Positions 30,715 through 63,159 of a stretch of 64,000 bases of DNA are shown piece by piece. The notes under the pieces are model-generated. The model did no database searches and was not told the DNA's origin. It saw only the letters and a program-made list of their open reading frames with translations. The stretch's first letter is position 1; the number at the start of each line of letters is the position of its first letter. Both the position numbers and the translations under genes were made by a program. The DNA is from Deltaproteobacteria bacterium (GTDB lineage: Bacteria > Desulfobacterota > Binatia > Binatales > Binataceae). Location of the stretch: positions 1-64,000 of the forward strand of contig JAKBMB010000028.1 of the NCBI GenBank assembly GCA_021831785.1. The letters are read 5' to 3'.

Positions 30715-32271
30715 CTACCGTTTTCGACCGTGCGGGTCGGGCGTTGTCTCCGATGCACCTTGATGCGCCGCGGCGCTTTGCGCTTCGAGCTCGCGCGCGA
30801 GCACGAGCGCGCGCAGCATCGCTTTGGCCTTGTTCACCGTTTCTTCATACTCCGCGTCCGGCTCCGAGTCAGCGACCACTCCCCCGCCGGCCTGGATGTA
30901 CACCTGGCCATTTTTTACCAGCAAAGTTCTAAGCGTGATCGCCGTGTCCATGTTGCCGGTATAGCTGAAGTAGCCGACCGCCCCGGCGTACACGCCGCGC
31001 CGCGTGGGCTCCAGCTCGTCAATAATTTCCATGGCGCGAATTTTGGGCGCCCCGGACACCGTACCTTGAGGGAAAGTGGCGCGAAAGGCGTCAAAGGCGT
31101 CGCATCCCTCGCGCAGTTCGCCTTGGACGTTTGATACGATATGCATGACGTGGGAGTAACGCTCCACGAGCAGAAACTCCGTGACCTTGACCGACCCTAT
31201 TTTGGCTACCCGCCCCACGTCGTTGCGCCCCAGGTCGACCAGCATCACGTGCTCGGCGCGCTCCTTGGGATCGCTCAAAAGCTCGCGCTCCAGCGCCGCG
31301 TCCTCCTCTGGCGTGGCGCCGCGTCTTCGCGTGCCGGCGATCGGCCGCACAGTGACTTCGCGCCCGGCCAGCCGTACCATCACCTCCGGTGACGCGCCGG
31401 CCAAGGTGAGGTCGTCCATGCGCAGATAGAACATGTACGGAGACGGATTAATCGTCCTGAGGCTGCGGTACAGGTTGAAGGGATGGACCGTCAGCGGCGC
31501 CTGGAAACGCTGCGAGGGGACAACCTGTATCACATCGCCGGCGGCGATATACTCCTTGGCCCGCAGCACTGTCTGCATGTAAGACTCGCGTGTGTAGTTC
31601 GAAACGACGGCGGCTTCACGATCGGTCCTCGCCTGATCCGGCGCGAGGCGTGGCAGCACCGGCGGTTGTGCCAGCTTGGCGATGAGCCGATCGATCTTGA
31701 CCGCCGCGTTTTGATAGGCGGTGTGGGCTGAATCGAACTCGTCCAAGGCCGCGTTGGCGACAATGCGCAGAGTTTGCCGCAGATTGTCGAATACCAACAT
31801 CGTGTCGGTGAACATCAGGCAAAAATCCGGCACACCCAACTCGTCCGGCGGCGGCGCCGGCAGGCGCTCGAAATGGCGCACGATATCATAGGCCAGAAAG
31901 CCTACCGCTCCGCCGAAAAACGGCGGTAAGCCCTCGGGCTTGGGCGCGCGATAGCGGACAAGCTCGGCGCGCAAGGCGGTCAATGGGTCCGAGATGTCGC
32001 GCACCTCGACCGAGCGGCCGGGCCGCATCACCTCCATGCGCGAGTCTTTGGCTCTCAGCACCAGGGCGGGATCCGAGCCGAGAAAGCTATAGCGCCCCCA
32101 TTTTTCGCCGCCCTGAACGCTCTCGAGCAGAAAGGCATAGGTCTCGCCGGCGACTTTGAGAAACGCCGAAACCGGGGTTTCGAGGTCGGCGGCGATCTCG
32201 CGCGAGAGCGGGATCAGGTTAAAGCCGGCCGCGGCTAAAGCCTCGAACTCTTTTTCGCTTGGCTCTAGCAT
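30715..32271 (-). CDS. trpE: Anthranilate synthase component I
   Basis: Converts chorismate to anthranilate with ammonia from TrpG. From ATG 32271 (GGGAGG upstream) it is 518 aa. The N-terminal domain carries LLESVQGGEKWGRYSFLG, whose LLES motif forms the tryptophan feedback site. The chorismate-binding domain has PSPYMFYLRM, PIAGTRRRGATPEEDAALE and LVDLGRNDVGRV. The frame is open to 32328 but the extension is not conserved. First structural gene of the trp operon; controlled by the leader at 32326-32511. Confidence 0.97.
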   Translation of the reverse strand: MLEPSEKEFEALAAAGFNLIPLSREIAADLETPVSAFLKVAGETYAFLLESVQGGEKWGRYSFLGSDPALVLRAKDSRMEVMRPGRSVEVRDISDPLTALRAELVRYRAPKPEGLPPFFGGAVGFLAYDIVRHFERLPAPPPDELGVPDFCLMFTDTMLVFDNLRQTLRIVANAALDEFDSAHTAYQNAAVKIDRLIAKLAQPPVLPRLAPDQARTDREAAVVSNYTRESYMQTVLRAKEYIAAGDVIQVVPSQRFQAPLTVHPFNLYRSLRTINPSPYMFYLRMDDLTLAGASPEVMVRLAGREVTVRPIAGTRRRGATPEEDAALERELLSDPKERAEHVMLVDLGRNDVGRVAKIGSVKVTEFLLVERYSHVMHIVSNVQGELREGCDAFDAFRATFPQGTVSGAPKIRAMEIIDELEPTRRGVYAGAVGYFSYTGNMDTAITLRTLLVKNGQVYIQAGGGVVADSEPDAEYEETVNKAKAMLRALVLARELEAQSAAAHQGASETTPDPHGRKR

Positions 32272-32325
32272 TTTCGATGAACCTCCCGTCGCGGCAGTAA
32301 ATTTAAGCGGCGCTGCGGCTATGCG

Positions 32326-32366
32326 CAAAAATTAAAAAGGCCGCCGGAAACCAATTCCCGCGGCCC
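32326..32366 (-). terminator. trp attenuator (intrinsic terminator)
   Basis: Read on the minus strand: GGCCGC-G-GGAA, loop UUGGU, UUCC-G-GCGGCC, then U5-A2-U5. The stem has six plus four pairs around one mismatch. It lies between the trp leader peptide and trpE. An upstream CCCGCG (plus 32405-32410 as CGCGGG) can pair with CGCGGG in the 5' arm (plus 32357-32362), giving a candidate antiterminator. Confidence 0.85.
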
Positions 32367-32390
32367 TTCCAAGTCCGGTTTCGGCCAAGC

Positions 32391-32468
32391 CTAGCAGACC
32401 AAGGCGCGGGCGCGTGCCGGCCCTCGCCATAGCCACAAAACGCAAAGCCTTTTCTCTGACGGCTTCAT
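32391..32468 (-). CDS. trpL: trp operon leader peptide with two Trp codons
   Basis: A 25-codon frame on the minus strand, ATG at 32468 and TAG ending at 32391, too short for routine gene calling. Codons 12 and 14 are TGG, giving the local sequence VLWLWRG. Stalling at these codons under tryptophan shortage would leave the CCCGCG segment downstream free to pair with the 5' arm of the attenuator. Position, Trp codons and terminator together match classical attenuation leaders of the trp operon. The start lies only about 8 bases after the predicted transcription start. Confidence 0.8.
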   Translation of the reverse strand: MKPSEKRLCVLWLWRGPARARALVC

Positions 32469-32471
32469 TAG

Positions 32472-32511
32472 GGTTACAGTCCTAGCTAACCGCCCCGGCA
32501 CTGCCTGTCAA
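32472..32511 (-). promoter_or_regulatory. trp operon promoter and palindromic site
   Basis: On the minus strand, TTGACA (plus 32506-32511) and TAGCTA (plus 32483-32488) are 17 bp apart. The inverted repeat GGTTA-N10-TAACC (32472-32491) covers the -10 box, as an operator would. A TrpR-type repressor is possible, but the sequence is not the E. coli trp operator. Confidence 0.65.
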
Positions 32512-59256: not shown

Positions 59257-59664
59257 TTAAACCTCCGGCGGCGTTTGTCCTCGCGGCGTCAATCCACTTG
59301 TCGTTCGGCCCGGGTCGAGTCGCTGTTCAAGCTCCTGAATCCGAAACGTCAGTCTTTCGGTGACGTTTCTTCGAAGACGTTGCGCCTCAATCCCGAAAAC
59401 CCATCCCAGTAAAGCAAGCGCCCAAGCTATTATCTCATTTGGCCGAACATCTGCAAAGAATCTCAAGGTGAAGCCTGCTAGTGACTGTTTGCCAGCAAGG
59501 TCGTGAACGGTCCTATAGATGCCAAAATAAGCGATTAGCACGCCAACGACACCCGGAACGAGTCGGTCGATGGCTTTCGAGACGGCATCAACCATGCGGA
59601 ACCGAAGCTGATATTGGAGTTCCAGTTTCCGCAGTTCGAGTTGCTTAGCGCCGTCGTTTGCCAC
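59257..59664 (-). CDS. Unknown two-helix membrane protein
   Basis: A 135-aa protein from GTG 59664 (GAGGA six bases upstream; the frame is open to TTG 59700). An N-terminal coiled-coil-like helix (QLELRKLELQYQLRFRMVDAVSKAI) is followed by two membrane helices (VPGVVGVLIAYFGIYRTV and EIIAWALALLGWVFGI) and a charged helix ending in a Pro/Thr-rich tail. Probably acts with the next gene, which starts 4 bp after it. Function unknown. Confidence 0.6.
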   Translation of the reverse strand: MANDGAKQLELRKLELQYQLRFRMVDAVSKAIDRLVPGVVGVLIAYFGIYRTVHDLAGKQSLAGFTLRFFADVRPNEIIAWALALLGWVFGIEAQRLRRNVTERLTFRIQELEQRLDPGRTTSGLTPRGQTPPEV

Positions 59665-59755
59665 GTCAGTCCTCGTAACAGTGCGCGCGCCTCTAGTCAA
59701 TCATGTGATGGCATGGGAATCCTTTCCCGGCGTGTCCGAGCCTCCAGCGAGGCTC

Positions 59756-59784
59756 TTGACGCGCGCGCCGCAAGCCGCTATAAA
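59756..59784 (+). promoter_or_regulatory. leu operon promoter
   Basis: TTGACG (59756-59761), 17 bp, TATAAA (59779-59784): a near-consensus sigma70 promoter. Transcription would start about 59791, twenty bases before the leader peptide ATG at 59811. Confidence 0.75.
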
Positions 59785-59810
59785 CCAGCGTTAGCGTGAG
59801 AACGACGGCG

Positions 59811-59891
59811 ATGTTGAACCCGGCGACCGCACTACTAGCTGGCCTATTGCTACCCGACTCCCGCGCCGGGGGGTTCGCCGTGCACGCTTAA
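59811..59891 (+). CDS. leuL: leu operon leader peptide rich in leucine codons
   Basis: A 26-codon frame, ATG 59811 to TAA 59891. Leu is at positions 2, 8, 9, 12, 13 and 14; four are CTA and two TTG. The dense run is CTA CTA GCT GGC CTA TTG CTA. It is followed by the intrinsic terminator at 59913. Stalling at this run (59832-59852) under leucine shortage leaves CCGGGG (59866-59871) free to pair with CCCCGG (59917-59922) in the terminator 5' arm, allowing readthrough. This is the classical layout of leu operon attenuation. Confidence 0.85.
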   Translation: MLNPATALLAGLLLPDSRAGGFAVHA

Positions 59892-59912
59892 GCGGCATTA
59901 GGTTTCAAGACG

Positions 59913-59957
59913 AGCGCCCCGGACAGCGGAATAAGACTGTCCGGGGCGCTTTCTTTT
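59913..59957 (+). terminator. leu attenuator (intrinsic terminator)
   Basis: A perfect 14-bp stem (AGCGCCCCGGACAG / CTGTCCGGGGCGCT), loop of ten (59927-59936), then TTCTTTTT. It stands between the leader peptide and leuA. Confidence 0.92.
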
Positions 59958-60013
59958 TGGGCCGCCGGCGCGCCGGTTCGACGTGACGAAGGACAAAGTG
60001 GAGGAGCCAAAAG

Positions 60014-61585
60014 ATGACGGTTTCAAATCCTGAAATCAACGGCCATGACGATTACGTGCGAATCTTCGACACCACTCTGCGCGACGGTGAGCAGTCGCCG
60101 GGAGCGACCATGAACGTCGAGGAAAAGGTTGCGATCGCGCGCCAGCTCGAGCTGCTCAACGTGGACGTAATCGAGGCCGGGTTCGCCATCTCTTCGGAGG
60201 GCGATTTCGAAGGCGTACGGCGGGTCGCTCAAGCGGTTGCCAAACCCGTGGTGTTGAGCCTGGCGCGCACCAATCAGGGCGACGTTGAGCGCGCGCTGAA
60301 GGCCGTGGAACAGGCGGCGCGGCCAGGGATTCACATCTTCATCGCCACCTCGGACATCCATCTGAAGTACAAGCTGCAGATGAACCGCGAAGAGGTGCTG
60401 GCTGCGGTTACGCGCGCGGTCTCGTTTGCCAAGCGCCACCTCGACCACATCGAATTTTCGTGCGAAGACGCGTCGCGCAGCGATTGGGCTTATCTGGCAA
60501 CGGTATGCGAAGAGGCGATCCGCAGCGGCGCCAGCGTGATTAACATTCCCGACACCACCGGTCATGCGGTCCCCGAAGAGTACGGGCGGCTGTTTGCCTA
60601 CCTGCGCGAGCGGGCGGGAGGCGCAAGCGGGGTGGTGTGGAGCGCACATTGCCATAACGACCTCGGGCTTGCCGTGGCCAATTCGCTGGCGGCGATTCGC
60701 AATGGAGCGCGCCAGGTCGAATGCACGGTCAACGGCATCGGCGAACGCGCCGGCAACACTTCGATGGAGGAGGTGGTGATGGCGCTGAAGACGCGCAAGG
60801 ACCTCTTCGGCGTCGAATCTAGGGTTAACACCCGGCAAATTTACGCTGCCTCGCGCTTGCTCTCGCAGATAATCGGCCAAGCCGTGCCGGCGAACAAGCC
60901 GATCGTTGGCGACAACGCCTTTGCCCACGAAGCCGGCATCCATCAGGACGGCGTCCTCAAACACAAGCTCACCTACGAAATAATGAAGCCCGAAGACATC
61001 GGCATCCCGTCCAACAAGCTCGTGCTCGGCAAACATTCGGGCCGCCACGCATTGGTCGAACGCCTGAAGGAGTTGGGCGTGGAGCCGACCCACCTGGACC
61101 TCAATAGCGTGTTCGCCGAGTTCAAGGCGCTGTGCGACAAGAAAAAGGTCGTCTATGACGATGACCTGCTTGCCCTGGTTACCGAAGAGGCCAGGCACGC
61201 GGGCGAACATTACGCGCTGGCGGCGCTCGAGGTAGCCTCGTCCAGCAAGTCCACTCCCGCCGCCACCGTAACGCTTAATGTCGGCGGACAGGAGCGCACG
61301 GCGAGCTCCACTGGCGACGGCATGGTGGATGCGTGCTATAAGGCGATTTGCAAGGCAGCCGCCGCCAACGTGACGCTAAATCGTTACACGGTTAAGTCGA
61401 TCACCCGCGGCACTGACGCCCTCGGTGAGGTCAACTGCCTGGTCGTCAACGACGGGATGACGGTCGCCGGACAGGGCGCCCATAGCGATATCGTGATGGC
61501 AAGCGCGCTGGCCTTTGTCAACGCGCTGAACCGCTTAGAATTGCGCCGGCACGCCACCGGTCAACGGCCCACCGGCGGGCCGTAA
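60014..61585 (+). CDS. leuA: 2-isopropylmalate synthase
   Basis: First committed step of leucine synthesis: acetyl-CoA plus 2-ketoisovalerate. The 523-aa protein has [60 protein letters not shown], and the regulatory C-terminal domain (residues about 390-510) with [23 protein letters not shown] precedes ATG 60014. Controlled by the attenuator upstream. Confidence 0.97.
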
Positions 61586-62049: not shown

Positions 62050-63159
62050 ATGACCTACAAAGTTCTGGTTCTTAAGGGTGACGGAATCGGGCCCGAGGTT
62101 ATAGGCGAGGCCGTGCAGGTGCTCAAGGTAGTCGCGCGGCGAGCGGCGGTTGACTTCGCCTTTGAAGAGGCAGTGGTGGGCGGTGCAGCGATCGATGCCT
62201 ACGGTGTTCCGATGCGCGCCGAGACGCTCAAACTGGCGAGCGAATGCGATGCGGTCCTGTTCGGCGCCGTCGGCGGCCCGAAGTGGGACAACCCGAATGC
62301 CAGCCATAGACCGGAGCAGGCGCTGCTGACGCTGCGCAAGGAACTGGGTCTTTACGCCAATCTCCGGCCGGTCAAAACCGTGAAGGAGTTGCTCAACACC
62401 TCTCCCTTGCGCCCCGAAATAGTCTCAGGGGTTGACCTGGTCGTGTTGCGCGAACTCACCGGCGGGCTTTACTACGGCCAGCCAAGCGAAAAACGCCAGG
62501 GGCGCGAGGGACGCGAGGCGGTGGACACGTGCTTCTATACCGAAGCCGAGGTCGCCCGCGCGGTGCGCTTCGGCTTCGAGCTCGCGCGCAGGCGACGCAA
62601 GCACCTGACGCTGGTGGACAAGGCCAACGTGCTCTCCACATCGCGTCTCTGGCGCGAGGTTGCAACCGAGATCGCCGCAGAGAACAAGGACGTGGCCTTC
62701 CAAGCCGTTCTGGTCGACGCCATGGCGATGTATCTTTTGCGCCGGCCCAGGGACTTCGACGTAATCGTCACCGAAAACATGTTCGGCGACATCCTGACTG
62801 ACGAGGCCTCGATGCTGGCGGGCTCGATGGGTCTGCTGCCGTCGGCGTCGGTGGGCAGCGAAATGAACAGCGTTGGCGGCCACATCGGCCTGTACGAGCC
62901 GATTCATGGCACCGCGCCGGACATCGTTGGACGCGACCGCGCAAATCCAATCGCGGCGATCCTGTCCGCGGCAATGATGCTGGACCTTTCATTCGGCATG
63001 CGCGCCGAGGCCGACTGGATAAACGACGCGGTCGCGGCCGTGTTGCGCGAGGGCTACCGCACCCCGGACCTCGCCGCGCCCGGGACCAAAATGGCCGGAT
63101 GCAAGGCGATGGGCCGCCTGGTGCGCGAGCGGCTGGAGAGCATGGAGCGGGACAGTTAA
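62050..63159 (+). CDS. leuB: 3-isopropylmalate dehydrogenase
   Basis: Oxidises 3-isopropylmalate with NAD+ and decarboxylates it. The 369-aa protein has VLKGDGIGPEVIGEAVQVL, GAVGGPKWDN, RELTGGLYYGQP, DKANVLSTSRLWREV, and VTENMFGDILTDEASMLAGSMGLLPSAS. ATG 62050. Confidence 0.97.
   Translation: MTYKVLVLKGDGIGPEVIGEAVQVLKVVARRAAVDFAFEEAVVGGAAIDAYGVPMRAETLKLASECDAVLFGAVGGPKWDNPNASHRPEQALLTLRKELGLYANLRPVKTVKELLNTSPLRPEIVSGVDLVVLRELTGGLYYGQPSEKRQGREGREAVDTCFYTEAEVARAVRFGFELARRRRKHLTLVDKANVLSTSRLWREVATEIAAENKDVAFQAVLVDAMAMYLLRRPRDFDVIVTENMFGDILTDEASMLAGSMGLLPSASVGSEMNSVGGHIGLYEPIHGTAPDIVGRDRANPIAAILSAAMMLDLSFGMRAEADWINDAVAAVLREGYRTPDLAAPGTKMAGCKAMGRLVRERLESMERDS

Follow-up and report, generated by a model that had tools for sequence, protein, structure and literature searches.

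The leucine locus and its leader

The window, a stretch of 64,000 nucleotides, is part of contig C4 in a 3.68-Mb genome of the Binataceae, phylum Binatota. It carries leuA followed downstream on the same strand by leuB, and leuC is located apart from leuA in the same genome (C4:164359-165750). Upstream of leuA a short Leu-rich reading frame is placed between a promoter and a terminator, and the features of the region are as follows:

59756-59784, forward strand: sigma-70-type promoter, -35 TTGACG at 59756-59761, 17-nt spacer, -10 TATAAA at 59779-59784
59796-59810, forward strand: possible in-frame extension of the leader, its GTG (59796) lying 11 nt past the -10 box
59805-59825, forward strand: segment 1, putative protector, from the minimum-energy fold
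59811-59891, forward strand: leader ORF of 26 codons plus TAA, MLNPATALLAGLLLPDSRAGGFAVHA, ATG at 59811 and TAA at 59889-59891
59832-59852, forward strand: control codons CTA CTA GCT GGC CTA TTG CTA, five Leu in seven, read from the sequence
59861-59877, forward strand: segment 2, from the fold and from the synonymous-codon control (0/200)
59913-59926, forward strand: segment 3, the terminator 5' arm, also within the antiterminator 3' arm, which spans 59911-59929
59937-59950, forward strand: segment 4, the terminator 3' arm, from sequence and covariation
59950-59958, forward strand: T-tract TTTCTTTTT, read from the sequence
60014-61585, forward strand: leuA, 2-isopropylmalate synthase, the putative controlled gene (TIGR00973, 690.8 bits, cut-off 598.7)
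62050-63159, forward strand: leuB, 3-isopropylmalate dehydrogenase (TIGR00169, 474.7 bits)

Each of the two promoter hexamers has five of the six consensus bases, the promoter has the top score in the region searched, and transcription is predicted to start near 59791. A TTGACN box located 17-18 nt 5' of a -10-like box is found at the matching place in most relatives. Both the promoter and the terminator were missed by a generic scan, the rules of which want a T ending the -10 box and loops of at most 8 nt. The closest sizeable ORF upstream (59257-59700) is on the opposite strand, and a separate transcript therefore seems to begin with the leader. The six Leu codons of the leader are TTG 59814, CTA 59832, 59835 and 59844, TTG 59847 and CTA 59850. 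Read from GTG 59796 the leader has 31 codons, compared with 26 from ATG 59811; this in-frame GTG is common to the window and the congener L084 and absent from L085, and either codon may be the start in the window. The terminator stem consists of 14 perfect pairs (59913-59926 with 59937-59950) around a 10-nt loop, and the T-tract ends 55 nt before the start of leuA. The first-pass annotation had described a complete leucine attenuation leader, with a near-consensus promoter, a 26-codon frame holding six Leu codons of which four are CTA, a dense run at 59832-59852, a perfect 14-bp stem before leuA, and a possible pairing of CCGGGG (59866-59871) with CCCCGG (59917-59922); on re-reading of the sequence all these parts are present at the coordinates given here, and the last pairing lies at the core of a more extensive antiterminator.

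On both strands of the window, the leader is the only ORF of 10-45 codons with at least five Leu in seven codons, and its terminator is the only stem of at least 12 perfect pairs followed by a T-tract. The total number of Leu codons is unremarkable, with P 0.07 for at least six in 26 codons and 0.14 for 31 codons, and for five Leu in seven codons at a given position P is 3e-4. CTA accounts for 8 of the 237 Leu codons in six ORFs of the window (2075 codons overall), and at this rate (8/2075) at least four CTA in 26 codons has a P of about 3e-6. The fold of the 170-nt leader RNA beats all of 200 shuffled sequences, with a z of -3.05.

Alternative pairings

The predicted antiterminator and terminator pairings are mutually exclusive as both use segment 3. 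In the fold of the whole leader segment 1 pairs with the region of segment 2 (59805-59811 with 59875-59881, and 59819-59825 with 59864-59870), and when the leader is covered to 59845 the remainder folds as the antiterminator holding the six CCGGGG/CCCCGG pairs, in agreement with the two-state leader first proposed. The pairing of segment 2 with segment 3 has five pairs outside the six core pairs (59861-59864/59926-59929 and 59865/59924), the core itself (59866-59871/59917-59922), and five pairs inside it (59873-59877/59911-59915).

Compensatory change is strong for the terminator and weaker for the antiterminator, and the two tests are not independent as strand 3 is common to both. For the 12 terminator pairs on alignment A1, 98.6% of 414 cells are paired, seven of the 12 pairs have double-sided changes, and the stem covaries to a degree that none of 500 shuffles reaches by any of five measures. 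The 16 antiterminator pairs are formed in 88.2% of 544 cells, compared with 24-49% when the strands are slid, and the covariation of 0.103 (shuffled mean 0.068) and the nine cells with double changes were each matched by none of 500 shuffles. The three antiterminator pairs with double changes were matched by 143 of the 500 shuffles, and the 13 further pair types by 18 of them. L038 was dropped from the terminator and antiterminator sequence sets as a false leader.

The duplex of segments 2 and 3 in the window has an energy of -29.7 kcal/mol, and is stronger than all 200 versions encoding the same peptide with randomised codons. Over 50 sequences, with the codon usage of leuA and leuB of the window applied to all, the mean z is -1.33, with 31 sequences below -1 and 19 not below this value; in L040, L045, L046 and L052 the hairpin picker took the second of tandem hairpins, which weakened their values in this set. 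Cognate pairs of segments 2 and 3 beat permuted pairs both in the 50 sequences (0/2000) and in 34 sequences outside the family (0/2000), 14 of which are also in the 50-sequence set, the relatedness of the sequences not being controlled for in these permutations. By the codon control 28 of the 34 have a z below -1 and six miss it; this repeat used a shorter reach, and the families lacking a Leu leader (f2, f7, f8, f12, f86 and f87) and L042 were excluded before the count. In the window clade a non-cognate Binataceae segment 3 pairs slightly better with segment 2 than its own does (-34.2 versus -31.0 kcal/mol), and by group means the Binataceae segment 3 pairs well with segment 2 of other groups also.

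Outside the family CCCGCC or CCCGTCC, which are Pro-Pro or Pro-Ser codons, often pairs with GGGCGG of the first hairpin. A different sequence thus serves there for the predicted antiterminator, which has two sequence solutions inside one class. Since these conserved codons pair with the hairpin, the conserved peptide tail probably reflects at least partly a constraint on the RNA.

Conservation in the Binataceae and the class Binatia

We collected 110 leuA loci (L003-L112), and when exact duplicates were collapsed 100 upstream regions remained. The Binataceae have 45 loci, and with 10 duplicates dropped this gives 35 distinct upstreams, where the rows from named contigs were placed in the family by leuA identity (at least 71%, L060 excepted) and not by tree. 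All 35, the window counted, have a Leu-rich leader and a terminator before leuA, as the first-pass reading would require, including L095, L098, L107 and L108 that were missed in the initial search and found with wider limits or by eye. A covariance model, R1, built from these 35 upstreams has exactly one match per genome in 40 of the 41 family genomes, and the only genome without a match, G006, is 53% complete and has a best leuA match of merely E 5e-11. Many of the genomes are sources of the model, and the result shows a single copy and completeness, not independent discovery. In the genome of the window a 35-base match to the promoter region was found elsewhere (L002), but it falls inside what by eye is a sulfotransferase-like gene and was put down to chance, and no comparable leader was seen in the 500 nt before ilvB (L193) and leuC (L201).

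From the class 58 genomes were drawn, and 51 of them have leuA at E 1e-150 or better. With a rule of at least four Leu in nine codons and a stop 60-280 nt before the leuA match, a Leu-rich leader is present in 32 of the 51 genomes and in 8 of 14 families, namely f1 (8/8), f4 (3/4), f5 (7/7), f6 (2/6), f9 (6/7, the miss being an upstream of only 177 nt), f10 (2/2), f11 (3/3) and f88 (1/1). By the same rule there is no leader in the other 19 genomes, including all those of f2 (four genomes), f7 (five), and f8, f12, f86 and f87 (one each).

At the outer Binatia loci L019-L022, L040, L041, L045, L046, L052 and L060 two tandem hairpins are located between the leader and leuA, and at several outer loci both hairpins share an arm of the GCCACGGGC type (partly by eye). 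At L017, L026 and L029 the gene preceding leuA encodes a membrane protein (phosphatidyltransferase-like by eye); a short terminator is present but no Leu leader was seen, indicating that leu attenuation may be absent or lost in part of the Binatia.

The control runs of the window clade have CTA in 9 of 17 Leu codons compared with 5 of 111 in its leuA genes. In the control run of other Binataceae CTG (113/185) and CTT (39/185) predominate, and CTT and CTA exceed their share in leuA. The leu leader of Salmonella uses CUA, and a swap to CUG lowers its sensitivity, according to PMC1183508; the window clade would have chosen CTA in parallel.

Start of the leader

For each upstream region the best promoter was picked without reference to the start codon. 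Of 74 leaders, 63 have their first in-frame ATG 5-12 nt downstream of the -10 box, most often at 9 nt (24 rows); three of the 74 rows (L168, L171 and L174) are probably not real leaders, one of these being among the 63, and the distant promoter of L095 is probably a wrong pick. In a set of 48 sequences, which leaves out L018 and L042, the same spacing is found in 43, compared with 60 of 960 shuffled upstreams. The close spacing occurs in families f1, f4, f5, f6, f9, f10 and f11, and not in the single f88 row. An ATG at this distance is at, or within a few nucleotides of, the expected transcription start, leaving little room for a Shine-Dalgarno sequence. Pairing to the anti-Shine-Dalgarno sequence is weak for the leader, with a median of -2.4 kcal/mol, and strong for leuA, with -8.5 kcal/mol; the leuA value is the optimum among candidate starts in a 90-nt range, a choice that favours leuA. 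No strong Shine-Dalgarno site was found before the leader, the translation of which is assumed. The close ATG and the weak pairing predict a leaderless leader ORF in most of these genomes. Among the exceptions is the whole window clade (L083, L084 and L085), with 26, 26 and 31 nt from the -10 box to the ATG; an in-frame GTG 11 nt from the box occurs in L083 and L084 only.

A second amino-acid leader, located before trpE in a putative trp attenuator region at 30715-32511, is present in the window:

32468-32391, reverse strand: trp leader MKPSEKRLCVLWLWRGPARARALVC, with Trp codons
32365-32339, reverse strand: terminator between the trp leader and trpE
32271-30715, reverse strand: trpE

Among the 39 family genomes with a match 30 trp loci were examined, and 29 of these, the window counted, have before trpE a short ORF in which a five-codon stretch holds two Trp codons. 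The ATG of this leader is 6-12 nt after the -10 box in 25 of the 29 loci, and three of the four exceptions belong to the window clade (L205, L206 and L207, with 14, 15 and 22 nt). Both in leu and in trp the distance from the -10 box to the ATG is thus longer in the window clade than in nearly all other Binataceae sampled (at most 12 nt), as if leaderless starts had been abandoned. We lean towards the reading that amino-acid attenuators of the Binatia are normally leaderless, in at least seven families for leu and across the Binataceae for trp, and that the window clade acquired its 5' untranslated stretch secondarily, at leu as well as at trp. If so, with a leaderless start a ribosome could bind the nascent RNA at once, and its spacing from the polymerase would be fixed from the outset. 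The predicted leaderless design at leu and trp, left by one clade at both, should constitute a testable case for the coupling of translation start and transcription.

Proposed mechanism and alternatives

Very probably the element controls transcription as a ribosome-mediated attenuator responsive to leucyl-tRNA. The polymerase should start near 59791, and a ribosome would begin on the short leader. When leucine is plentiful the ribosome would clear the CTA/TTG run and get to the stop codon at 59889, segment 2 would be occupied or folded onto segment 1, segment 3 would pair with segment 4, and transcription should end at the T-tract near 59957. When charged tRNA-Leu is scarce, especially that reading CTA, the ribosome would be expected to stall at 59832-59852 and cover segment 1, and the free segment 2 (59861-59877) could then capture segment 3 ahead of the synthesis of segment 4, blocking the terminator so that leuA is transcribed. 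Stalling, termination and the response to leucine are here deduced from the arrangement of the parts.

Two other explanations have a very low probability. In the first the hairpin is simply an intrinsic terminator that ends an upstream transcript and the Leu-rich frame is incidental, which would suit the strength of the terminator and the Binatia loci where leuA lies behind a gene and its short terminator and lacks a Leu leader (L017, L026 and L029 by eye; short terminators are also listed for L025-L028 and L030-L032). This is hardly compatible with the sizeable ORF nearest upstream in the window being on the other strand (59257-59700), with the Leu-rich frame, promoter and terminator being kept together in relatives, and with the complementarity of segment 2 being above the codon-randomised control.

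According to the second, which is just as improbable, the leader peptide exerts control in a way other than classical attenuation, for example by an RNA fold acting on the translation of leuA. Such an action is suggested for the actinobacterial LEU element, where frames with Leu runs are located before leuA and a pseudoknot is described (PMC1262725) in which the base stem pairs Leu codons with the Shine-Dalgarno box of leuA. The available text mentions no terminator for that element, whereas the window has a terminator and a T-tract; all family members sampled have a covarying terminator with a T-tract, and the partner of the leader segments is the terminator arm and not the start of leuA.

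Direct sensing of leucine or tRNA, by a T-box or some other leader that responds to a ligand or protein, has only the position before leuA in its favour and can practically be dismissed, as a Leu-rich reading frame is conserved instead, no Rfam model, Leu_leader and T-box included, reaches its gathering threshold anywhere in the window, and neither of these two models is among the five matches listed up to E 10 in 59740-60030. These five (rdlD, two microRNAs, ncS54 and ar7) are below their gathering scores and centred on the terminator hairpin, and were rejected. Judged from its sequence and its conservation, the element is very probably a real leucine attenuator of the classical kind, with an ordinary mechanism.

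Relation to known leaders

In E. coli and Salmonella leuL is a Leu-rich leader before leuA with an alternative antiterminator and terminator, and comparative work on proteobacterial attenuators exists. The Leu leader architecture and the CTA control codons of the window are like those of leuL (Rfam Leu_leader), but the window has no match to the Rfam model, most of its relatives have a predicted leaderless-type start, and leuC is not next to leuA. The trpL attenuator leader RNA of Sinorhizobium meliloti begins with ATG, and is thus leaderless, according to PMC7298713. It resembles the predicted design of the Binatia leaders, and differs in its amino acid, Trp and not Leu, and in belonging to another lineage; in addition its RNA 5' end is reported in that text, whereas that of the Binatia is predicted from promoter spacing, and the spacing in the window clade is longer. 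Leaderless initiation is also discussed for the ilvBNC leader of C. glutamicum in PMC11857589.

No description of a leucine attenuator in the Binatota or Binataceae was found in a search that mostly covered literature outside subscription journals, which together with the lack of an Rfam match is consistent with the first-pass suggestion that the element may be undescribed in this lineage. The mechanism is known; its occurrence in this lineage and the conserved design with a predicted leaderless start appear to be undescribed. Leucine attenuation would thereby be extended to the Binatota, the members of which are nearly all metagenome-assembled genomes in the collections searched, and the conservation throughout the family provides a covariance model usable for annotation.

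In the rest of the phylum R1 has matches in 6 of 198 genomes, three of these being Binataceae. The matches L144 and L145 were rejected as leu leaders and are leaders of other amino-acid genes. L145, on the reverse strand of the phylum member G189, has the leader MKQLLVLVLMVVLVVVVPPGRDCPWD and a terminator before an ilvB-like gene (by eye), and L144, on the reverse strand of G081, has the aromatic-rich leader MGKGYFWGFYFYYWFGPGLPVGLEVETLE and tandem terminators before a DAHP-synthase-like gene (by eye).
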